Source: Flavobacteriaceae bacterium
GTDB lineage: Bacteria; Bacteroidota; Bacteroidia; Flavobacteriales; Weeksellaceae
Length of the DNA: 49,561 bases
Direction: 5' to 3'
NCBI GenBank assembly: GCA_012522185.1
Contig: JAAYKY010000042.1
Span: 1-49,561, forward strand
The number at the start of each line of letters is the position of its first letter. Position 1 is the first letter of the stretch. This document shows positions 157 through 41,892 of the stretch, piece by piece. The notes below the pieces were generated by a model. The model did not search any database, was not told where the DNA came from, and saw nothing but the letters and a program-made list of their open reading frames with translations. Both the position numbers and the translations under genes were made by a program.

Positions 157-3060
157 TTAAGAATTTTTCACTAATCTTCTTGCTTCTCCTTTTTTGGTCA
201 AATCATACATTATCTGAGAAGAAATATAAATCGATGAATAAGTACCTACGATTACCCCGATGATCATCGCAAACATAAATCCTTTGATTGTTTCACCACC
301 GAAAATAAAAATAATCAATACCACCAACAACATACTCAGAGACGTATTCATCGTTCTCGAAAGCGTATTATTGGTTGATTTATTAATCAAATCGTAGAAT
401 GGCATTTTGGGATATAGTCCAAGGTTTTCACGGATTCGGTCAAAGATAATTACCGAGTCGTTGATTGAGTAACCGATAGCGGTCAAAATAGCTGCAATGA
501 ACGCTTGGTCAATTTCAAGGTTAAAAGGAAGGATTCCATGAAGTGCTGCAAACAATCCGAGAATCACAATCACGTCGTGAACAGCTCCTACGATAATGCC
601 GACTCCAAATTGCCATCTAAATCGGAAAAGAATATAAATACCTACACCTAATAAAGCCAATATAACAGCGATAATCGAAGCTCTTGTCGTATCGTCCGCG
701 ATGGTAGGCCCTACTTTTACGATGGAAAGAATCCCGACTTCGGTGTCGTCTTTGGAGAAATCTTCATAACTCATACCAGGAAGGAAAGATTTAACTCCTT
801 CGTAGATTTTTTGCTTGATTTCTTCGTCCACTTCTGTAGATTCCTGATTGGCTTTTAGTTTGGTCGTCACTTTTACCTGATTGGATGGCCCGAAAATCTT
901 CACGGTTGGAGCCGTAGTCGTTCCGTCGTCATTTGTCAATGTTTTTTCAAGTTCCAATCTCAACTCATTGGTATTAACAGGTTGTTCAAAACGGATGGTA
1001 TAAGTTCGCCCTCCTTCGAAATCAACTCCCATATCAAAACCACGAACGAAAATAATGACTATGAAAATAAGAGAAATTACAGTCGAGATGATGTAGAACA
1101 ACTTTCTTTTTGACATGAAATCAATGTTCAAACCTTGGAACCAGTTTTTGGTAATACTCGTAAAGAATTGAACATTTTTGCCTTCTTCCAAACGTTTATC
1201 GATAAACATTTTGGTCAAGAAAATGGCTGTAAATAAGGAACAGAATAGACCGATGATCAGTGTAATGGCAAACCCTTGAACAGGTCCTTTTCCAAATAAT
1301 AAAAGAATAGCAGCCGTCAATATCGATGTGATATGACCGTCAAAAATAGCCGAAATGGCTCCTTTCCACGAGTAAGCAATCGAGACCGCTTCTTTTAATG
1401 ATTTCCCAGCAAATAATTCGTCTTTTACCCTTTCGTTGATAATGATGTTTGCGTCAATCGCCATACCCAAGGTAAGGATGATCCCCGCAATACCCGGTAA
1501 GGATAGAGTTGCTCCAAATAGTCCAACCAATAGTCCCATCAGGAACAAAATATTAATCGTCAAAGCAATATCTGCATAAATTCCAACTCGGCTGTAATAG
1601 AATACCATCCAAAGAAGAATCAACACAAATACAACCGCAAAGGAGATCAATGAGCTGTTAATAGCTTCCTGTCCCAAAGAAGGTCCTACTTCTTCCAATT
1701 GAACGATTTTAGAAGAGGCCGGTAAACTACCTGCTTGTAGGATATTTGCAAGGTCACGCGCTTCTTCCAAAGTGAAATTCCCTGAAATCTGCGAGCTACC
1801 CCCCGAAATCTTTTCGTTAATATTCGGAGCGGAATAAACCATATTGTCTAGTACGATGGCAATCGAGTTTCCAACGTTTTCTTCTGTAATTCGAGACCAT
1901 CTCTGCGCTCCTTCTGCATTCATTCGCATCGTAACAATCGGTTCGTTTGAAATACTTCCGGTATTTCTTTCTCCGGTTGCTTCATCTACGACATCACCTG
2001 GAAGCAATGGCGCATTGTTTTGATCGCCACTCAATGCATAAAGCGAAAGGAATCTTGCATTTGTATTGGCATCACGTGTTTCAATAGGCTTGTGTCCCCA
2101 ATAATATTTATAGTTTCGGATACTGGTTGGCATGCTCGCTCTTAAACCGGGAGCATTCAATATCTGATTAAATATGGCGGTGTCTTTTGTTGCTACCGAA
2201 AACAAAGAATTTCCTTCCATCGGAGGCATGATGATTTCATGCAAACTCTCTAATTCGGTTTTAATTCCTAAATTTTGAGGATTCAAAGTGCTGAAAAATG
2301 AATTCACTTGAGGGTTATTGGCTTCAACCTTCCAGAATTCAAGTTTAGCGGTACTTTGAAGTAAGTTTTTAATTCGGTCTTTATTTTTTTCACCCGGCAT
2401 TTCCACAAGAATTCGTCCGTCAGCATCACCACCTAAACGCTGAATGACAGGTTCAACCACACCAAAGCGATTGATACGTGAAGAAATTACTTGATAAGCT
2501 GTACCGATTTTGGAATCAATATCTTTTCTGATTTTTGATTTTACGGACTCATCACTTTCATTGAAATCGATGAAGGTTGCATTTTGGCGATTTCCAAAAA
2601 TATCAGCCGAAGCATAACGTAAATCAGTTTGACCTTTCTCGGCACGAATTCTTTCAAATTCATCAAAGAAAATGTCCACATAGGCACGGTTACCTTGTGT
2701 ACGCTGACGGATGTCGGCGGCATCAAGTGCTTCTGTGAAAATTGGATTTTTACTGTTGGTCGAAAGGTTTTCCAAAAGGTCACGAACCTGAACCTGAAGA
2801 ATCACACTGATTCCTCCACGAAGGTCAAGACCTAATTTAAGTTCCTTATTTTTAGCATCATGATAATTGTAACTAATGATGCCCAAATTGAGCGTGTCAT
2901 TGGCCAAACTGTCCAAAATAACTTGCTCATGAGCTTCATCTGTCGCCAAAGCAAATGCCTCACTTTCGATTTTATTGGTGTACCAGGTATAACTTAATTG
3001 TCTGATGGAAAGAATTCCCAGAATGATCGCAATACCTGCAATAAGCCATTTTCCTTTCAT
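157..3060 (-). CDS. secDF: Fused protein translocase subunit SecDF
   Basis: SecD and SecF use the proton motive force to help SecYEG move proteins across the inner membrane. Here both are one 967-aa chain, the usual arrangement in Bacteroidota. An N-terminal membrane anchor is followed by the SecD motif LGLDLRGG near residue 77, a large periplasmic domain, and a six-helix bundle with GMAIDANIIINERVKDE. The SecF half begins near residue 640 with its own helices, the MGVDFEGGRTY motif, and a second bundle containing AIGYSINDSVIIFDRIRE. The ATG at 3060 sits 32 bases from a good -7 box. The gene stands alone, with its own promoter and terminator. The family call is secure. Confidence 0.97.
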   Translation of the reverse strand: MKGKWLIAGIAIILGILSIRQLSYTWYTNKIESEAFALATDEAHEQVILDSLANDTLNLGIISYNYHDAKNKELKLGLDLRGGISVILQVQVRDLLENLSTNSKNPIFTEALDAADIRQRTQGNRAYVDIFFDEFERIRAEKGQTDLRYASADIFGNRQNATFIDFNESDESVKSKIRKDIDSKIGTAYQVISSRINRFGVVEPVIQRLGGDADGRILVEMPGEKNKDRIKNLLQSTAKLEFWKVEANNPQVNSFFSTLNPQNLGIKTELESLHEIIMPPMEGNSLFSVATKDTAIFNQILNAPGLRASMPTSIRNYKYYWGHKPIETRDANTNARFLSLYALSGDQNNAPLLPGDVVDEATGERNTGSISNEPIVTMRMNAEGAQRWSRITEENVGNSIAIVLDNMVYSAPNINEKISGGSSQISGNFTLEEARDLANILQAGSLPASSKIVQLEEVGPSLGQEAINSSLISFAVVFVLILLWMVFYYSRVGIYADIALTINILFLMGLLVGLFGATLSLPGIAGIILTLGMAIDANIIINERVKDELFAGKSLKEAVSIAYSWKGAISAIFDGHITSILTAAILLLFGKGPVQGFAITLIIGLFCSLFTAIFLTKMFIDKRLEEGKNVQFFTSITKNWFQGLNIDFMSKRKLFYIISTVISLIFIVIIFVRGFDMGVDFEGGRTYTIRFEQPVNTNELRLELEKTLTNDDGTTTAPTVKIFGPSNQVKVTTKLKANQESTEVDEEIKQKIYEGVKSFLPGMSYEDFSKDDTEVGILSIVKVGPTIADDTTRASIIAVILALLGVGIYILFRFRWQFGVGIIVGAVHDVIVILGLFAALHGILPFNLEIDQAFIAAILTAIGYSINDSVIIFDRIRENLGLYPKMPFYDLINKSTNNTLSRTMNTSLSMLLVVLIIFIFGGETIKGFMFAMIIGVIVGTYSSIYISSQIMYDLTKKGEARRLVKNS

Positions 3061-3092
3061 AATCGGTGTCTTATTAAGAATTTTTTAACGCG

Positions 3093-3124
3093 CAAATATA
3101 GAAGTATATGATAACTTTACCAAA
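3093..3124 (-). promoter_or_regulatory. Bacteroidota-type promoter of secDF
   Basis: On the minus strand TTTG (3124-3121) is followed after 20 bases by TATATTTG (3100-3093), matching the Bacteroidota -33/-7 pattern. Initiation would fall near 3086, giving a short leader before the ATG at 3060. Confidence 0.7.
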
Positions 3125-3172
3125 ATTATACAGATTGTTCACAAGTTTTTTTCAACAATAAATGGTGCAAAC

Positions 3173-4498
3173 TTACAATAATTCGTTTGCCAGATTGGCT
3201 AACTCACTTCGCTCTCCTTTAATTAATTGAATATGAGCAAATAATTTCTGACCCTGAACCTTATCAACCAAATACGATAAACCATTGGATTGCTCATCCA
3301 GATACGGCGTGTCAATTTGCTTAATGTCACCAGTGAAAATAAATTTTGTGTTTTCACCCGCTCTTGTGATAATCGTTTTGATTTCATGAGGTGTCAGGTT
3401 TTGTGCTTCATCCACAATGAAAATCACATCGGACAAGCTTCTTCCGCGGATATAAGCCAATGGTGTAATCAGTAATTTTTCCTGTTCCACCATCAGATTG
3501 ATTTGCTTATATTCCTTGTCCTGTTCGTCAAATTGATATTGAATAAATTTCAAATTATCCCAAAGTGGCTGCATATAAGGATCGATTTTCGATTTGATAT
3601 CGCCGGGAAGATACCCGATGTCTTTATTGCTTAACGGAACAATGGGGCGTGCCAAGTAAATCTGCTTGTAGTCTTTTTTCTGGGCAATCGCGGCCGCAAG
3701 TGCTATCAAGGTTTTTCCTGTTCCTGCCACGCCATGAAGGGCTACCAATTTGATTTCTTTCTTTAAAATCGAATGAATGGCAAAAGCCTGTTCGGCATTC
3801 TTGGGCTTTATATTAAAAACCGTTTGTTTGTTAACTCGTTCCAATTGCTGTTCAAAAGGATTATAATAGGCCAAAGCCGACGATTTATCACCTTGCAATA
3901 TATAATAAGCATTGGCCGAAATCTCCATTTTTTCCTGAATCATTTCCAAAGGAATCGCATAATCTTTATAAAGCGAATCGATGACTTCTTGGTCAAAGTC
4001 GGTATAAGTTAGGATACCGGTGGGCAGATTGTCCACATTTTGAACCTTACCCGTTTCGTAATCCTCCGCTTTTATACCAAGTGCCTTAGCTTTCAGTCGG
4101 AGATTGACATCCTTTGTCACAAGCGTGACCAATCGATTGGGTTCCTCATGGGCTACAATCAAACAGGAATTCAGTATTTTATTGTCCATGGTTTCCGAGC
4201 CGTAAATCTTCATTGCTGATTTCGGAATTCCATTGGTTTCCATAACAATTTTAAAAGAACCCTTTCCCTCACCCGGAAGGGGAATCCAATCTTGAATCAA
4301 ATGATCTTTGGAGTTTTTGTCAAGGAAACGGATAAATTCACGGGCTTCAAAGTTCTTGGTATCATTTCCTTTTTTAAAAGTGTCTAGCTCTTCCAAAACC
4401 GTAATCGGGATTACGATATCATGCTCATCAAAGCTCATGATGGATTTGTGGTCAAAAATGATAACAGACGTATCAAGTACAAAAATTTTCTTTTTCAT
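3173..4498 (-). CDS. PIN domain plus PhoH-type ATPase
   Basis: A 441-aa two-domain protein. The N-terminal PIN nuclease-like domain (about residues 1-150) starts MKKKIFVLDTS and shows the acidic residues expected in that fold: D9, E36/E37, D105 and D130. The C-terminal PhoH ATPase (about 235-441) has Walker A GVAGTGKT at 256-263 and Walker B IVDEAQ at 361-366. In mycobacteria this architecture (PhoH2) is an RNA helicase/ribonuclease; applying that activity here is inference. The metal-binding acids look intact. It stands alone on the minus strand, and no phosphate-box operator is evident. Confidence 0.92.
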   Translation of the reverse strand: MKKKIFVLDTSVIIFDHKSIMSFDEHDIVIPITVLEELDTFKKGNDTKNFEAREFIRFLDKNSKDHLIQDWIPLPGEGKGSFKIVMETNGIPKSAMKIYGSETMDNKILNSCLIVAHEEPNRLVTLVTKDVNLRLKAKALGIKAEDYETGKVQNVDNLPTGILTYTDFDQEVIDSLYKDYAIPLEMIQEKMEISANAYYILQGDKSSALAYYNPFEQQLERVNKQTVFNIKPKNAEQAFAIHSILKKEIKLVALHGVAGTGKTLIALAAAIAQKKDYKQIYLARPIVPLSNKDIGYLPGDIKSKIDPYMQPLWDNLKFIQYQFDEQDKEYKQINLMVEQEKLLITPLAYIRGRSLSDVIFIVDEAQNLTPHEIKTIITRAGENTKFIFTGDIKQIDTPYLDEQSNGLSYLVDKVQGQKLFAHIQLIKGERSELANLANELL

Positions 4499-14851: not shown

Positions 14852-16096
14852 ATGAAACCCATACTATTTGACAGAGACGCCTGGTCTGAAGTTTATTCGG
14901 CGATTCGCAAAAACAAAATGCGAACGATGTTGACGATGATCGGTGTGGCTTGGGGGATGTTTCTTTTTGTGGCGCTTCTGGGTTCTTCAAGGGGTATTCA
15001 AAACGGTTTTGATAAAATTTTTGCCAATGCGGCGACCAATAGTCTTTTTGTTTGGATGCAGCAAACGGCGATTCCATTTGAGGGCTATCAGCGAGGCCGA
15101 ATGTTGGAATTGAAAATGGAAGATATAGAAGCCATTAAGGCAAATTTCCCTCAAATTCAAAAAATTGCACCCAGAGGTCAGGAAGGAGGTGCGACGGTCA
15201 AATACGGGACCAAATACAGCACTTACAGTGTTTCGGGGGATTATCCCGAGCAAAACGAAATGTTTAAAAAACCAATTGTTCAAGGAAGATTTATAAATCC
15301 GGATGATATCACATACGGCAAAAAAGTATGTGTCATCGGGATGGATATTCGCGATGAACTTTTTCCCGAAGATACAAATCCAGTTGGCAAAATGATTCAA
15401 ATCGGATCGGGAATGTACACGGTGGTCGGAGTTTATCAGCAAGGTTCCATGGGGTTTGGTCGGAACAACGAAATTCATATTCCATTTACTACTTTTCAAC
15501 GGGTTTACAATCGGCAGGATGTGGTGAATTATGTGATTATCAATGCAAAAGACAATGTGGATATCGTGGCCTTTGAAAAACAAATCAAAGATTTTCTCAA
15601 AGAACGAAAAACCGTTCACCCTGACGATACGCAGGCGATTGGTGGTTTTAATCTGGGCGAAAATCTGAATAAAATGTTTTCCTTCATGAGTGGACTTCAA
15701 CTTTTAGCGATTGTCGTGGGTGCGCTGACTTTATTTTCAGGTGTGATTGCGATTGCCAGTATTTTGTTGATTACGGTATCGGAACGAACCAAGGAATTCG
15801 GCATTCGCCGGGCTTTGGGAGCAGTCCCGGGACAAATTCGTTCGCAAATTTTATTGGAAGCCATTGTTTTGACCCTGATTGCTGGGCTTTCGGGAATTGT
15901 CGGCGCTAGTTTTTTGCTTTTCCTGATTAATTCTTCGGTAAACAGCGATATATTTCCATTTATAAATGCTTCGGTAGATGTAACAACTCTTGGAGTTGCG
16001 CTACTTATCATGATAGTGATGGCGATGCTCGCCGGATTGATCCCCGCACAGAGGGCGATTTCCATCAAGCCGATTGATGCTTTGAGAGACGAGTGA
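14852..16096 (+). CDS. MacB-like ABC permease (second)
   Basis: A 414-aa paralogue of the preceding permease with the same layout: N-terminal helix (RTMLTMIGVAWGMFLFVALLG), periplasmic MacB_PCD domain, and three C-terminal helices with SERTKEFGIRRALGAVPGQI. It ends SIKPIDALRDE. A 79-base purine-rich gap separates it from the first permease, with no terminator, so co-transcription is likely. Keeping two separate permease genes with one ATPase argues for a heteromeric exporter. Confidence 0.9.
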   Translation: MKPILFDRDAWSEVYSAIRKNKMRTMLTMIGVAWGMFLFVALLGSSRGIQNGFDKIFANAATNSLFVWMQQTAIPFEGYQRGRMLELKMEDIEAIKANFPQIQKIAPRGQEGGATVKYGTKYSTYSVSGDYPEQNEMFKKPIVQGRFINPDDITYGKKVCVIGMDIRDELFPEDTNPVGKMIQIGSGMYTVVGVYQQGSMGFGRNNEIHIPFTTFQRVYNRQDVVNYVIINAKDNVDIVAFEKQIKDFLKERKTVHPDDTQAIGGFNLGENLNKMFSFMSGLQLLAIVVGALTLFSGVIAIASILLITVSERTKEFGIRRALGAVPGQIRSQILLEAIVLTLIAGLSGIVGASFLLFLINSSVNSDIFPFINASVDVTTLGVALLIMIVMAMLAGLIPAQRAISIKPIDALRDE

Positions 16097-26792: not shown

Positions 26793-27394
26793 TTTTTTAT
26801 GACCTCAATTTTGCTAGCCAGATAATGGGTGCCTTCTTTATTGCCATTCTCATATTCTATCACTGTTTTTAGTTCTAAAATAACACCAGGTAATCCCCAA
26901 AACTTTTCGGGTCCCGTTTTGTAACTAAGTTTAGGAGCGTACCAAGCTTCGATTTTTGTTTGATTTTCATCTTCCAGAACGGCGATGGCTTTTAGGGTTG
27001 AAATTCCTGCAATTTCTTTTGTTTCTTTCTTAATTTCCCAATTGATAATGGGTAAATCATCTTGAACTAAAAACGCCTTTCCGCTCAATTTTATACCTTC
27101 TACGTATTTTTTTGTTTGGAAGTTTTTATAAACTGGATTTTCATCTGCAGACATCATAGCCATAGAAAATCCACTTATTTCGGATTGGGAATTATTTATA
27201 GTGGGGACAACTGTGTAAATCGACTCGCTTTCAGTTGAGATTAATTCAAATATACTTGTGACTGAATTTACTGAATTATCAACTCGATTAATGGACTCAA
27301 AATAGGGCTCTACTTCGTACTCAATTCTTAATTTTTCTTGTGCCTTTGATAGACTTAGGTAGAATAAAAAGTTGAATAAAAAAATGTACTTCAT
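26789..27394 (-). CDS. GLPGLI-family secreted protein, C terminus frameshifted
   Basis: A 201-aa member of the GLPGLI family, named after its conserved motif (here WGLPGVILEL near 170). The signal peptide is MKYIFLFNFLFYLSLSKAQ. Family marks are PIINWEIKKETKEIAGISTLKA and AWYAPKLSYKTGPEKFWGLPG. The reading frame stops early at 26791; the missing 37 residues continue in another frame (separate entry). It follows a second GLPGLI gene in tandem. Members are periplasmic or surface beta-rich proteins of unknown function, often next to TonB-dependent receptors, but none is here. Confidence 0.85.
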   Translation of the reverse strand: MKYIFLFNFLFYLSLSKAQEKLRIEYEVEPYFESINRVDNSVNSVTSIFELISTESESIYTVVPTINNSQSEISGFSMAMMSADENPVYKNFQTKKYVEGIKLSGKAFLVQDDLPIINWEIKKETKEIAGISTLKAIAVLEDENQTKIEAWYAPKLSYKTGPEKFWGLPGVILELKTVIEYENGNKEGTHYLASKIEVIKK

Positions 27395-27403
27395 TTTGCT
27401 GAT

Positions 27404-27541
27404 TTATTTTTGTTCCCATTCATAAATTTTCTCAGGTCCCGATCTATTTAAAGTAATAAAAAAATTACCAGGTTCCCCAATAGCTTTTGAAACTCTCGTA
27501 GCTTCTTTAATTGCTTCGTCGCGATTAAATATTATCCCATT
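27404..27541 (-). other. Out-of-frame tail of the upstream GLPGLI gene
   Basis: The interval between the two GLPGLI genes is open in one minus-strand frame from about 27541 to a TAA at 27406-27404. It reads GIIFNRDEAIKEATRV, then NFFITLNRSGPEKIYEWEQK, and has no ATG. One extra base in the GGG at 27538-27536 would join it to the end of the 216-aa protein and leave only 9 bases before the next ATG. I read it as the displaced C terminus of that protein; a separate remnant is the alternative. Confidence 0.45.
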
Positions 27542-28182
27542 TCTTTATAAAAGTCTCTAAGGAAGTAGAAAATTGGTCTGTATATGTTAAATTTATAGAG
27601 GTTTTTTTTGTATGGATAAATAATTTTGGTTGCTTTCGAGTAATAATTATGGTTATCGTCCAATGTTATTTCAAGAATCAAACCAGGCAATCCGCTGAAT
27701 TTCCATGGACCAAAACTCATGGGAATTTCTTTTGTAAAGTAAGCAGTAAAACTTGATCCTCTAAAACTAAGTTTTGCTTGTCCACACTCGTAACCATTTA
27801 TAACTTTGGTTTTACTTGAATCAATTTCCCAATGCAAGGCAGGAATCGTATCTGCGATAAAATATTTAGTATCATCTATGTAATCTTCAAAAAAAACAAC
27901 ACCTTGATTGAACTTTGTGTAATAAGATCTTGGTTTTATACTTTCATTATCTATTGTATTAATTGTATTAGAGGTCTCATCTGTAAAGGCAAGTTTGGAT
28001 TTTTCCTTTACTTTGCGTTCTAAAATGTCATATTTAGCCATTTCTTTATTGGCAATTAAGACTTCTGTATTTGAGTAATTTTTAAAGAATTCCCCATGTT
28101 CATATTCTACATAAACATGATTTTGTGCAATTGAAATTTGAATAAAAAAAACGGACAAAAAGAGTGCTATGTGTTGTTTCAT
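27532..28182 (-). CDS. GLPGLI-family secreted protein, possibly frameshifted
   Basis: A 216-aa protein with the signal peptide MKQHIALFLSVFFIQISIAQ and the family motifs IPALHWEIDSSKTKVINGYECGQAKL, AYFTKEIPMSFGPWKFSGLPGLILEI (about 145-170). It is the first gene of a two-gene GLPGLI tandem. The last residues, FLRDFYKEMG, run into a stop just where another frame takes over with coding-like sequence. A strong 10-bp hairpin lies 20 bases before its ATG. The function is unknown. Confidence 0.87.
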   Translation of the reverse strand: MKQHIALFLSVFFIQISIAQNHVYVEYEHGEFFKNYSNTEVLIANKEMAKYDILERKVKEKSKLAFTDETSNTINTIDNESIKPRSYYTKFNQGVVFFEDYIDDTKYFIADTIPALHWEIDSSKTKVINGYECGQAKLSFRGSSFTAYFTKEIPMSFGPWKFSGLPGLILEITLDDNHNYYSKATKIIYPYKKNLYKFNIYRPIFYFLRDFYKEMG

Positions 28183-28202
28183 AGTTTTTCATATAAATAG
28201 TT

Positions 28203-28229
28203 GGAAATCTTAAGAAAACTAAGATTTCC
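28203..28229. repeat. 10-bp hairpin/operator upstream of the GLPGLI genes
   Basis: GGAAATCTTA (28203-28212) and TAAGATTTCC (28220-28229) form a perfect inverted repeat with a 7-base loop. It lies between the divergent GLPGLI and XRE genes, 20 bases from the GLPGLI ATG. There is no U-run, so an operator (perhaps for the XRE protein) or a leader hairpin is more likely than a terminator. Confidence 0.5.
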
Positions 28230-28339
28230 AGCTTATTACTAATTTATAACCCTGCTGTTGATATTTAATTTATAGTTAAGCGTTAAACTATATCTTAAAA
28301 TTGTTTTACAAAATTGCTTTGTATTTGCATAAATACCCG

Positions 28340-28352
28340 CCCGATAATCGGG
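28340..28352. repeat. GC-rich palindrome CCCGATAATCGGG
   Basis: A perfect 6-bp inverted repeat around one base, 78 bases before the XRE gene and just after a weak -7-like sequence (TGTATTTG at 28320-28327). It stands out in AT-rich DNA. It is a candidate operator. Confidence 0.35.
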
Positions 28353-28429
28353 AACTCCGACCTGTTTTCGTGTCAAATCAGTTAAAGATAGAAAAATATT
28401 TAAATTTATAACCTAAACACTTTACCAAA

Positions 28430-28828
28430 ATGAACGCTAACATAGGGAACAAAATTAGACAAATCAGAAAAATAAGAGGATTCACACAAGAAATCATGGC
28501 TGATAGGTTGAATATTTCTCGTTCAGCTTATTCAAGAACAGAGTTAGGGGAGACTTCAGTTTGGGTTTATCATATAAAAAATATTTGTAAGGAATTGGAT
28601 GTTACATTTGAAGAACTTCTTTTCAGCCCTGAAAGTTTGGAACAACAAGGTGGTCTCCCTACTTTAACAGTTCGAAGCTACAAAAATAAAGACAACCTTT
28701 TTGCTCTCAACCAAATATCAGAGAAGCTAATAAATCAATATGAGAAGCGCATAGAGGAATTGACAAGAAAAATTAAGGAATTAGAAGGTAGAAAAAAAGT
28801 ATGGTTTCCCTTCCTTTGGAGGGGCTAG
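28430..28828 (+). CDS. XRE-family helix-turn-helix regulator
   Basis: A 132-aa protein. The N-terminal HTH_3 domain (about 5-64) has IGNKIRQIRKIRGFTQEIMADRLNIS and the recognition segment SRSAYSRTELGE. The linker is followed by a coiled coil (about 95-120, KRIEELTRKIKELEGRKK) for dimerisation. It lacks a sensor or peptidase domain. It faces away from the GLPGLI pair, with two palindromes between them that could be its operators (inference). It ends 7 bases from the convergent ppx gene. Confidence 0.9.
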   Translation: MNANIGNKIRQIRKIRGFTQEIMADRLNISRSAYSRTELGETSVWVYHIKNICKELDVTFEELLFSPESLEQQGGLPTLTVRSYKNKDNLFALNQISEKLINQYEKRIEELTRKIKELEGRKKVWFPFLWRG

Positions 28829-39218: not shown

Positions 39219-39524
39219 ATGAGTCAAAAAATCAGAATAAAATTAAAATCATACGATCATAATTTGGTGGATAAATCTGCCGAGAAAATCGTAAAAACTG
39301 TAAAATCTACAGGAGCGGTTGTAAACGGTCCCATTCCATTGCCAACCAACAAAAGAATCTTTACAGTATTGAGATCTCCGCACGTAAACAAAAAAGCGCG
39401 CGAACAGTTTCAATTGAGTGCTCACAAAAGATTGTTGGACATCTACAGTTCATCATCCAAAACAGTTGATGCCTTGATGAAATTGGAACTTCCAAGTGGA
39501 GTAGAAGTAGAAATCAAAGTCTAA
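39219..39524 (+). CDS. rpsJ: 30S ribosomal protein S10
   Basis: 101 aa, universal uS10, beginning [20 protein letters not shown], with [20 protein letters not shown]. It doubles as NusE in transcription antitermination. It is the last gene of this transcript: a strong terminator follows at 39620-39647, so unlike in most bacteria it is cut off from rplC by 1.7 kb of other DNA. Confidence 0.98.
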
Positions 39525-39529
39525 TCTAG

Positions 39530-39573
39530 CCCACGATTTCAATCGTGGGGTTGAAAAGATTTCAATCGTGGAA
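39530..39573. repeat. REP-like palindrome with partial direct repeat
   Basis: CCCACGAT-TTCA-ATCGTGGG (39530-39549) is a perfect 8-bp hairpin directly after rpsJ. Its right part GATTTCAATCGTGG recurs at 39559-39572. Palindromes of this type are scattered in many Bacteroidota genomes, which would make them REP elements moved by RAYT transposases; that needs a genome-wide count. Confidence 0.6.
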
Positions 39574-39619
39574 ATTTAGATTTCAACAAACATTTGAAAT
39601 TATAGTTTCAAAATATAGA

Positions 39620-39647
39620 ATCCGCCTCAAAAGGGCGGATTTTTTTG
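39620..39647 (+). terminator. Terminator ending the rpsL-rpsJ transcript
   Basis: ATCCGCC (39620-39626) pairs with GGCGGAT (39634-39640) over a 7-base loop, followed by eight T residues including the stem end. It is a textbook terminator inside what is normally a continuous S10 operon. Confidence 0.92.
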
Positions 39648-39670
39648 TTTTGAAAATTTTTAACCAAGTA

Positions 39671-39703
39671 AGATCTCCAAGGTTTTCAAAACCTTGGAGG
39701 TCT
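39671..39703. repeat. 16-bp REP-like palindrome
   Basis: A near-perfect inverted repeat with a 16-bp stem (one G-U) around a single base. Its core is CTCCAAGGTTTT / AAAACCTTGGAG. It is too long and too regular for chance, and similar palindromes are known as dispersed repeats in Bacteroidota. It could act as a structural barrier or bidirectional terminator. Confidence 0.75.
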
Positions 39704-39793
39704 TTTCTTAATCGATGGATTGATATATTCAGGAATTATTAATTTTGGATTTAAAACCGATAGAAAATGAGGTTACACGGGATGTTTAAACCA

Positions 39794-39840
39794 CACGATG
39801 CAATCGTGCGGGAGCGGGGGGAGTGCCGGAGCGGGGGGGG
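39794..39840. repeat. Third palindrome followed by a G-rich block
   Basis: CACGAT-GCA-ATCGTG (39794-39808) is followed by G-runs of 3, 6, 2 and 8, containing GGAGCGGGGGG twice. Four G-runs on one strand could form a G-quadruplex. The GC content is far above the surrounding 30-35% DNA. The rest of 39704-39793 shows nothing recognisable. Confidence 0.6.
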
Positions 39841-39866: not shown

Positions 39867-39874
39867 TATATTTG
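39867..39874 (+). promoter_or_regulatory. Candidate -7 box of the lipoprotein-HEPN module
   Basis: TATATTTG, 20 bases before the ATG at 39894. No clear -33 box is present; the G-rich block occupies that place. Confidence 0.4.
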
Positions 39875-39893
39875 AAAGATTAATTACCTAATT

Positions 39894-40508
39894 ATGAAAA
39901 GAATTTTGTTGAGTTTAATTTTTTTAATACATATCCAATGCGTTGAAGATAAGACTAATCATAAAATAGCAGAATTGGAGCAAAAAATTGAACAACAATC
40001 GCTTTTGTTAGAACTTCAGAATAAAAAAATTGATGAAATAGCAAAAATTGAAGAAACACAAGAGGTGGAAAATAATTTGAGCAGTTTATTTCATAAATAT
40101 TGCAATGATAGATTTTCGTTTTGCATAGAATATCCATCACAATTCACTCCAAATGGGGAGTCCGAAAATAGAGATGGACAAAATTTCACTTCTGTAGATG
40201 GTCTTACATCAATATCGGCTTGGGGAAATTTAGTGATAGTAGACATAAATGATTTAGATGCGAATTTTAATTATGAATTAAATAATCCTAATCTAAATGT
40301 GACTTATAAAATTAAGAAGGAAAATTATTTCGTTATATCTGGTACCTACGATCAAAATGTTTTTTATAGAAAAACAATTTTAAAAAAGATTAATTATTTA
40401 AATCAAGGTTCTACAGATGTATTAATAACGTGGCAAATTACATATCCAATAAATCAAAAGAAAACTTTTGATTCTTATTGTGAGAAGATAAATAATCAAT
40501 TAAGATAG
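39894..40508 (+). CDS. Lipoprotein of unknown function in the rpsJ-rplC gap
   Basis: A 204-aa protein with a lipobox signal (MKRILLSLIFLIHIQC, Cys16). A coiled coil follows (about 22-60, KIAELEQKIEQQSLLLELQNKK), then a globular domain beginning FSFCIEYPSQFTPNGESEN, the pattern of a small envelope-exposed domain with two more cysteines. AT-rich codon use is stronger than in the neighbouring ribosomal genes, suggesting acquisition. The HEPN-domain gene starts two bases after its stop, so the two are co-translated. I do not recognise the family. Confidence 0.75.
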   Translation: MKRILLSLIFLIHIQCVEDKTNHKIAELEQKIEQQSLLLELQNKKIDEIAKIEETQEVENNLSSLFHKYCNDRFSFCIEYPSQFTPNGESENRDGQNFTSVDGLTSISAWGNLVIVDINDLDANFNYELNNPNLNVTYKIKKENYFVISGTYDQNVFYRKTILKKINYLNQGSTDVLITWQITYPINQKKTFDSYCEKINNQLR

Positions 40509-40510
40509 AT

Positions 40511-41038
40511 ATGTTTAACGAAAATGAATGGTTTAAATCTTTTTTTCAATTAGAAAATAAGGACTTCGATTTAAGTAAGATCGAGAGTGCAAAAAATTTT
40601 GTTTTATTTTGGAGTTTATTTGAAAGATATTTTTGTGACAAAGAGGCGAGTTTAAGAGTTATTGATGATAATTTTACTAAGCTATCAGATTCATATTCTA
40701 TGCCTTCCGAAATTACAGAACATTATTACGAACTTTTTAGAAATCGATATACTTCTAACGGTGTAGTAAATTCATTAATTGAGTCGTTAAATTTTAGAAA
40801 AAAATACTCGGATCCAAATTATAAGAGTAAACTAATCGAAATTTTAGAAAATGATAGTGCCTCAGAAAAAGATAAAGTTTTTGCCTGTTTTATTATTATT
40901 TATAGATATAGGAATAACCTCTTTCATGGCTCAAAGAGAATAGCGAATATAGAAACTCAATTAGAAATTTTTGAAAATTCAAATAATGTTATAGCAATTT
41001 TTTTAGATTTTTTAAAAAGCAGTAGCAAACTAAAATAA
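40511..41038 (+). CDS. HEPN-domain protein
   Basis: A 175-aa, mainly helical protein. The decisive motif is YRYRNNLFHG (131-140): Arg134-N-N-L-F-His139 is the RX4-6H signature of HEPN ribonucleases, in the form RNNLFHG seen in Apea-like HEPN proteins. The N-terminal helix FVLFWSLFERYF (30-41) with Glu38 is the other conserved helix. No nucleotidyltransferase antitoxin is adjacent; instead the partner is a lipoprotein two bases upstream. It may be an RNase toxin or an abortive-defence effector, or a non-catalytic HEPN; only the motif is seen. It sits inside the S10 operon, just before the rplC promoter. Confidence 0.75.
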   Translation: MFNENEWFKSFFQLENKDFDLSKIESAKNFVLFWSLFERYFCDKEASLRVIDDNFTKLSDSYSMPSEITEHYYELFRNRYTSNGVVNSLIESLNFRKKYSDPNYKSKLIEILENDSASEKDKVFACFIIIYRYRNNLFHGSKRIANIETQLEIFENSNNVIAIFLDFLKSSSKLK

Positions 41039-41137
41039 TTCTACTTATTAAATTAATTGATAATGAGCGCAATGCTTAGTGCTGTTAGTTCTTCCTCAAA
41101 AACTTCAACATCTTCTCTAAAAAATACTTAGATAAAA

Positions 41138-41168
41138 TTTGTGTTGTGTAAATAAATTCCTACATTTG
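41138..41168 (+). promoter_or_regulatory. Promoter of the rplC-rpsN operon
   Basis: TTTG (41138-41141), 19 bases, TACATTTG (41161-41168). The 15 bases TTCCTACATTTGCAC (41157-41171) are identical at the rpsH promoter. Initiation near 41175 gives a leader of about 90 bases; it holds only weak short pairings, so I do not claim a structure. Confidence 0.82.
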
Positions 41169-41265: not shown

Positions 41266-41892
41266 ATGTCAGGAATCATTGGAAAGAAAATTGCCATGAC
41301 GAGCTTGTTCGATGAGAACGGGAAAAACATCCCGTGTACCATCATCCAGGCCGGTCCCTGCGTCGTAACACAGGTCAGAACCGAGGAGAAAGACGGATAT
41401 AAATCCGTTCAGCTTGGTTTCGATGACGCAAAAGAGAAGAACACACCTGCTGCTTTGAAAGGTCATTTCAAAAAAGCGGGAACTACGCCAAAAAGAAAAT
41501 TGGTGGAATTTTACGGAGCATTTGTTGACGAATTGGAATTGGGGAAAGAAATTACCGTAGACATCTTCAAAGAAGGTGAATATGTGGACATCACAGGAGT
41601 TTCAAAAGGAAAAGGTTTCCAGGGTGTTGTAAAACGCCACGGATTTAGTGGAGTAGGACAAGCTACCCACGGGCAACACAACCGTTTGAGAGCGCCGGGA
41701 TCTATTGGTGCTGGATCAGACCCATCAAGAGTATTCAAAGGAATGCGTATGGCGGGAAGAATGGGCGGTAAAAACGTTACTGTTCAGAATTTGAATGTAG
41801 TTAAGATAGACAAAGAAGAAAACCTTTTGATTGTAAAAGGTGCAGTTCCGGGTCCTAAAAATTCATACGTAATTATCAGAAAATGGAATTAA
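41266..41892 (+). CDS. rplC: 50S ribosomal protein L3
   Basis: 208 aa, universal uL3, an early assembly protein near the peptidyl-transferase centre. The tip loop reads [26 protein letters not shown]; the Gln methylated by PrmB in E. coli is replaced here (GAGSDP), so that modification should be absent. It is first in a new transcript and overlaps rplD by 10 bases. Confidence 0.98.

Follow-up and report, generated by a model that had tools for sequence, protein, structure and literature searches.

A HEPN-type protein family with one member beside a probable lipoprotein gene at the rpsJ–rplC junction of a Flavobacteriaceae bacterium

The gene pair and its site

Between rpsJ and rplC the window (by which we mean the whole 49,561-nucleotide stretch analyzed here, from contig JAAYKY010000042.1 of a Flavobacteriaceae bacterium) carries two genes on one strand with 2 nt between them, the first encoding a probable lipoprotein and the second a HEPN-type protein. 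The features of the locus are:

39219-39524: rpsJ, upstream flank of the pair, named by eye
39532-39547: hairpin, upstream of the pair
39617-39643, + strand: intrinsic-terminator-like hairpin with a T run, 3' of rpsJ
39670-39704, strand not given: near-perfect palindrome, terminator-like
39867-39874, + strand: TATATTTG, fits TAnnTTTG and ends 19 nt before the lipoprotein start
39894-40508, + strand: probable lipoprotein gene, 204 aa (ORF list; phrog_37818 match, E 1.9e-5)
40511-41038, + strand: gene for the HEPN-type protein, a predicted endoRNase, 175 aa (ORF list, 88-sequence alignment, model)
41161-41168, + strand: TACATTTG, a possible, weak candidate promoter element for the downstream rplC unit
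41266-41892: rplC, downstream flank of the pair, named by eye

The initial annotation of this DNA had described two genes coupled by two bases and rich in AT, and our analysis agrees on both points: GC is 0.262 in the lipoprotein gene and 0.252 in the HEPN gene (GC3 0.20 and 0.19) against 0.36–0.43 in six neighboring str/S10 genes, and the GC of the pair lies below that of all 485 same-length segments of the window taken in 100-nt steps. It had also placed REP-like palindromes on both flanks. The strong hairpins are upstream only, however, and downstream of the pair a hairpin scan returned a single weak one (41066-41083). The REP-like label does not fit either, since the genome contains three exact copies of the palindrome core (39677-39697) and one more with two mismatches (control, 0), which makes it a low-copy repeat. 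The hairpin at 39617-39643 would, from its sequence, uncouple the pair from rpsJ transcription, and the element at 39867-39874 is a possible, weak candidate for the promoter of the pair. TAnnTTTG is the Bacteroidota -7 element; it is no commoner than chance in the scanned DNA (6 matches versus 5.3 expected), and a sigma-70 promoter scan was likewise at chance level (9 versus 10.2). We also observed two G-rich 17-nt direct repeats, 88% alike, immediately 5' of the cassette (39806-39839), and elsewhere in the window a second AT-rich stretch (27001-28750; GC ~0.29–0.31 in windows starting at 27001-27601).

The rpsJ–rplC junction is variable in the window's bacterial family. From 40 searched genomes we collected 30 rplC loci, of which 16 allowed the distance to rpsJ to be measured; rpsJ was not found in 12 further rplC stretches, 4 of them running to a contig end, and two loci (G745, G739) were left out of the count. 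The distance is 1741 nt here, 22–110 nt in six relatives (two from the family and four from the order), 319 nt in G742, ~400 nt in G065 and 2.6–6.8 kb in seven family relatives (G730, G733, G743, G744, G747, G674, G738), two of which are of the same genus as the window. The earlier description of the pair as sitting in a ribosomal operon is therefore right about its flanks but does not capture a site at which seven relatives have other genes. Position at so variable a junction tells little about ribosomes, and the pair is cargo within a broken operon. HigBA-like genes precede rplC in G730 and a HigA-like ORF does so in G731, both named by eye. In two same-genus relatives the HigBA-like toxin-antitoxin genes before rplC lie at L166:6836-7496 and L185:21-791 (by eye), and L185 has another lipoprotein-like ORF before rplC as well, so that the site gathers cargo of this sort. 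Separately, positions 15710-15885 of an unannotated "Bacteriophage sp." record (MT836236.1) match the rplC start at 70.5% over 176 nt, which is possibly bacterial DNA inside a phage record.

The upstream protein and its relatives

The upstream protein is probably an exported lipoprotein, as judged from its N terminus, in which K-R and a hydrophobic stretch are followed by Cys16 and then a heptad-like helix. These features fit the lipoprotein with a coiled coil that had been proposed, whereas the residues at the cysteine fit it less well: H-I-Q-C is not a canonical lipobox, and neither a simple lipobox pattern nor a hydropathy scan flagged the N terminus. No transmembrane segment emerged from that scan for the protein as a whole. 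A helical or coiled-coil part (~21-60) precedes a C-terminal domain (~66-204); a single-sequence model places residues 1-50 in blocks of pLDDT 81–94 and leaves the C-terminal domain unmodelled, with a pLDDT of 45.9 for the whole. Bacteroidota surface lipoproteins have the LES consensus K-(D/E)2 or Q-A-(D/E)2 after the cysteine (PMC5080379; this and the papers below are cited for their accessible parts), and no such surface signal is present after Cys16 of the window lipoprotein, where the sequence reads V-E-D-K.

Of the 395 genomes in the class, 4 others share the C-terminal domain, as do 6 plasmid records. All eight of the ten relatives that we read (L128-L135) start with a signal-like stretch and three (L128, L129, L133) have a plausible lipobox, both by eye. 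The lipoprotein matched no Pfam family, and a PDB sequence search with it gave weak matches only; a weak PsbP_2 match (0.046, in 1 of 9 relatives) was rejected.

The two genes had been put forward as a module, an idea to be given up if they never occur together elsewhere, and in the DNA searched their distribution speaks against it. The lipoprotein occurs in none of 122 HEPN loci and the HEPN gene in none of 8 lipoprotein loci in the flanking DNA searched, which spans ~1.5 kb or less for L128-L131 and under 2 kb on one side in 22 of the 122 HEPN loci. In the closest HEPN relative, which comes from a genome of the same bacterial family (G953; 43% identity), the lipoprotein profile likewise found no relative of the lipoprotein among the neighbors; there a 264-aa protein is encoded 35 nt upstream of the HEPN gene and three further genes lie on the other side. 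Across all the sequences searched the lipoprotein–HEPN pair is confined to the window, and the pairing is probably local. Two observations on the G953 locus were made by eye. Its five adjacent same-strand genes (L241:2314-7229) include two that encode RN...H-like stretches, and the start of the 329-aa protein at 2314-3303, which the lipoprotein profile does not match, recalls the lipoprotein's C-terminal domain.

A HEPN-type family

The second protein contains the motif RYRNNLFHG, that is R134-N-N-L-F-H139, in agreement with the RX4-6H signature noticed at the outset. By our estimate a lone R-x4-6-H in 175 residues would be common by chance and is weak evidence alone; the motif is more than chance because it is invariant in 88 aligned sequences. 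These comprise the window's own sequence, 73 from genome contigs and 14 from viral contigs, drawn from 34 viral-contig loci and from 80 genome-contig loci taken on from the 96 that a pattern scan found for the family, with fragments and near copies omitted; at L010, L039, L073, L104, L105 and L107 the gene is fragmentary or split. Ten residues are invariant across the alignment (E38, R79, Y80, R134, N135, N136, H139, G140, K142, Q150). Because the pattern used to scan genomes prescribed the RNN core, and the two used on viral contigs contained RNN..HG or the WSLFE block, the RNN, HG and WSLFE-block columns are not independent evidence; R79, Y80, K142 and Q150, which lie outside every search pattern, do count as such. 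All ten residues are kept in seven plasmid relatives found without a pattern. A tblastn search with the HEPN protein matched 11 plasmid records, from which a Fusobacterium record was dropped; that locus (L011) lies inside another ORF and is unmatched by the HEPN profile.

Every one of the 88 aligned members matches PHROG 27260, a family of unknown function, at E<=0.001, with a best E of 2.4e-14 and 1.8e-7 for the window protein; weaker matches are to PHROG 19013 in 14 of the 88 and to 37557 in one. PHROG 27260 is a phage family without recorded function or fold, and 73 of the 88 members aligned here come from bacterial genome contigs. A match of the window protein to phrog_10051, an "endolysin" (E 0.0017), was dismissed. 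Scans of both window proteins against Pfam, NCBIfam (run on these two proteins only) and PADLOC gave no useful match. Among the 88 members the Pfam and PADLOC matches were scattered and weak, the best being MecA (0.0037) and DUF2290 (1.5e-4), each in a single member, and none of the 23 Pfam families matched by any member at E<=0.1 is a HEPN family. Neither HEPN_Apea (PF18739) nor HEPN_MAE_28990 (PF18737), the families suggested initially, appeared in these 88 members or, with their Pfam models, in the window's genome. Single-sequence searches of viral contigs gave no relative of the HEPN protein or the lipoprotein, and annotated phages gave no match to either window protein or to one viral-contig HEPN relative. 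The gene is present in 2 of 246 genomes of the window's bacterial family, 1 of 6 of its genus and 1 of 395 of the phylum, the last being the window's own; a match in G315 from the class search (60 residues, E 6.3e-4, 4 stops) was dismissed. The family was not found among the names in Table 1 of the main HEPN survey (PMC3710099, accessible part), nor was a description of it in the literature searched, a scope outside which subscription papers and supplements fell. From its sequences, then, the HEPN-type family is real, widespread and uncatalogued in the libraries searched, and the initial description of the unit as undescribed holds for the curated ones (Pfam, NCBIfam, PADLOC; PHROG with function unknown).

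The predicted structure of the window protein is confident (pLDDT 91.3, pTM 0.88) and helical throughout except for two short bridges. R134 ends helix 119-136, H139 is in the loop before helix 144-170 and E38 is in helix 21-42, which is where HEPN domains have their motif and an extra acidic residue (PMC3710099); E38 fits the conserved acidic residue of the earlier helix, and the Ex3[KR] form given there is not kept. Foldseek comparison of the model with known structures and with viral models returned nothing at E<=0.001, and a PDB sequence search with the protein or its profile returned nothing below E 1. When VIA-align, which re-ranks only the candidates supplied by Foldseek, was applied to 537 PDB chains, the best was 6m6w_B, the HepT toxin chain of the MntA-HepT pair (Z 4.8, rmsd 3.5, 95 residues); the next was the unrelated helical protein PorLM (Z 4.2), and 6m6w is the only HepT entry among the best 50 of the 537. 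Comparison by hhalign gave E values of 0.06 for HepT (27 sequences), 0.033 for DUF4145 (10), 0.089 for MAE_28990 (2) and 0.39 for Apea (2), as against 0.19–0.79 for 16 reversed or shuffled controls, so that the Apea score is no better than the controls. The local matches to HepT and MAE_28990 have the R-N-x3-H motif in register, whereas that to DUF4145 does not.

No profile or fold search gave a significant match to a known HEPN protein. Membership of the 175-aa protein in the HEPN superfamily is nonetheless well supported by the motif, the modelled topology, conservation and context. The identity proposed at the outset thus stands, on an invariant motif placed as in HEPN domains within a helical model, a weak best match to HepT and neighbors of defense type. 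With HepT of the HEPN/MNT systems (PF01934) the window protein shares a small all-helical build, the top VIA-align chain and, in the best local profile match, an R-x4-H in register. It is longer (175 aa versus 133 in 6m6w_B), shows no significant profile match (hhalign E 0.06), has no MNT partner and lacks the tyrosine two residues after the histidine, the RX4HXY tyrosine that MntA modifies in HepT (PMC7641770).

Gene neighborhoods and possible roles

To describe the partners of the family we listed 90 ORFs of at least 80 aa on the same strand and within ~100 nt of the HEPN gene at 102 deduplicated loci, the window excluded. By Pfam these include ten GIY-YIG-type MUG113 proteins, three PglZ, three reverse transcriptases, three AAA_13 and single cases of HsdM, GmrSD_N and DUF4238. 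In four loci (L044, L056, L074, L090) the HEPN gene is near a pglZ-type gene and, going by sequence, apparently inside a BREX operon; three of these records are Gastranaerophilales with the gene 11 nt before pglZ, and in L056 it lies 6 nt after an Eco57I/N6-methylase gene. DRT4/DRT6-like reverse transcriptases adjoin it in two Myroides genomes and, by eye, in one Pseudomonas (L072:3965-6002, L087:3965-6014, L088:3914-6253; L072 confirmed by Pfam). TrlF-annotated ATPases share gene rows with it on two plasmids, and BLAST found TrlF-like proteins in seven HEPN loci, directly upstream in L028. In L013 the gene lies 131 nt before AbiV, and L012:830-5527 reads HsdS, a DUF4145-like HEPN gene, the window's HEPN family and GmrSD_N, the first two by eye. 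L012 thus presents two HEPN-type genes adjacent within a restriction locus.

Membrane proteins also recur. In three Bacteroidota loci (L019, L020, L022) a multi-TM protein of 284–288 aa begins 2–3 nt downstream of the HEPN gene, and L054 has a 102-aa ORF with a similar start; relatives of the multi-TM protein occur on 4 plasmid records, none of which was matched by the HEPN protein. In two PglZ loci (L044, L090) a 252-aa protein with hydrophobic stretches is encoded 21 nt upstream. A same-strand ORF of at least 80 aa lies within 30 nt of the HEPN gene in 50 of the 102 loci, a count inflated by spurious frames in GC-rich loci; the other 52 have none, so many members may stand alone, and 7 of the 102 are near a contig end. 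The apparent enrichment in defense genes is an impression from uncontrolled neighbor counts.

On a tree of 103 sequences that includes the window but not G953, with labels set by hand, the GIY label needs six changes and the TM-protein label one, which argues that partners have been swapped although some pairings last. The GIY label stands on 13 rows, as against the Pfam domain in 10 of 90 neighbors, a total not broken down by neighbor; the one in L003 lacks the domain, those of L003 and L043 resemble GIY members by BLAST, and the label of L051 is unconfirmed. L019, L020, L022 and L054 form one clade (support 98/97). The window groups with L012-L015 (98/95), a placement that its long branch and odd letter composition make tentative.

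Several described systems invite comparison. Tha, of Staphylococcus prophages, is likewise a HEPN-domain protein directed against phage, and non-specific RNase activity is reported for Tha-1 (PMC11087260); Tha is triggered by phage tail proteins, and its likeness to the window protein is taken from its published description. The HEPN "backup effectors" of BREX/PglZ systems are standalone HEPN proteins in or beside BREX, as in L044, L056, L074 and L090, whereas the window copy is outside a BREX locus and the accessible part of PMC12839542 does not name the PHROG 27260 family. The membrane-associated HEPN proteins of PMC3710099 (section 15) share the idea of an external stimulus controlling an inner-membrane RNase; those proteins carry HEPN and TM parts in a single chain, and here the lipoprotein is separate and exported.

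We favor, as a reasonably probable reading, a model in which PHROG 27260 proteins are cytoplasmic HEPN RNases that serve as a movable effector of anti-phage loci, with the copy described here in an acquired cassette beside an ordinary lipoprotein. A functional module, in which an inner-membrane, periplasmic or surface lipoprotein senses envelope damage or phage contact and controls the HEPN RNase through a membrane link, we consider distinctly unlikely. The 2-nt spacing, common strand and equally low GC would suit it, but the spacing suggests shared expression, not shared function, and the distribution described above (no lipoprotein at 122 HEPN loci or in the 43% relative, no HEPN gene within the flanks of the lipoprotein's eight relatives) argues against it, as does a lipoprotein in which the hydropathy scan saw no transmembrane segment to carry a signal inward. 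Multi-TM proteins recurring beside other members (L019, L020, L022, L054; L044, L090) leave room for a membrane sensor in the family, as do the membrane-tethered HEPN proteins described in section 15 of PMC3710099, but the lipoprotein profile does not match these TM partners. A broader version, with PHROG 27260 as the common killing arm for BREX, type I restriction-modification, reverse-transcriptase systems, GIY-YIG and TrlF, answering here to a lipoprotein of the envelope that signals contact with phage or damage from outside the cytoplasm, strikes us as far-fetched. We regard it as highly improbable that the two genes are antitoxin and toxin, the upstream one neutralizing a HEPN toxin: two-gene order and spacing, the MNT antitoxins that commonly partner HEPN toxins (PMC7641770) and the HigBA-like and HigA-like genes before rplC in G730 and G731 would suit it, but the neighbors here are the lipoprotein, without a Pfam match, and rplC, with no MNT gene adjacent, and the RX4HXY tyrosine is replaced by S141 in a family whose consensus is HGxKW. 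Because the lipoprotein looks exported, it could not restrain a cytoplasmic toxin after processing.

The remaining alternatives concern the HEPN protein itself. That it is a non-nuclease, a nucleic-acid-binding or scaffolding helical protein keeping a HEPN-like motif, is unlikely. Such a protein would account for the lack of significant structural or profile matches to characterized nucleases, and some HEPN domains are thought to be non-catalytic; the same paper (PMC3710099) ties those roles to domains that lack the motif, whereas R, N and H are invariant here in 88 of 88 sequences, as are further charged residues. We judge it very unlikely that the cassette serves no purpose today and is passenger DNA undergoing decay. 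It has the lowest GC of the window and a long tree branch, and no HEPN match is found in the 5 further genomes searched from the genus or in 244 of the 246 of the family, but neither frame is interrupted and the HEPN protein retains its full set of ten invariant residues.

Returning to the effector model, we envision a HEPN protein that probably works as a dimer in which R134, N135 and H139, with E38, K142 and perhaps R79 and Y80, would cut RNA in a metal-independent manner. Once released or activated it may arrest either the cell or the phage, in the manner of Abi systems and of Tha, with a partner that would differ from locus to locus. The AT-rich cassette was probably acquired recently, at an rpsJ–rplC junction that was already variable, and the adjoining lipoprotein would be an ordinary exported protein that arrived on the cassette or was picked up next to it.

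For the window, these results correct an attractive but unsupported story of sensor and effector. If its members are RNases, the family supplies a HEPN effector missing from the catalogues searched, with representatives on plasmids, among viral contigs and at chromosomal loci of several phyla. Its swapped partners also allow the idea of a single RNase serving many sensors to be put directly to the test.
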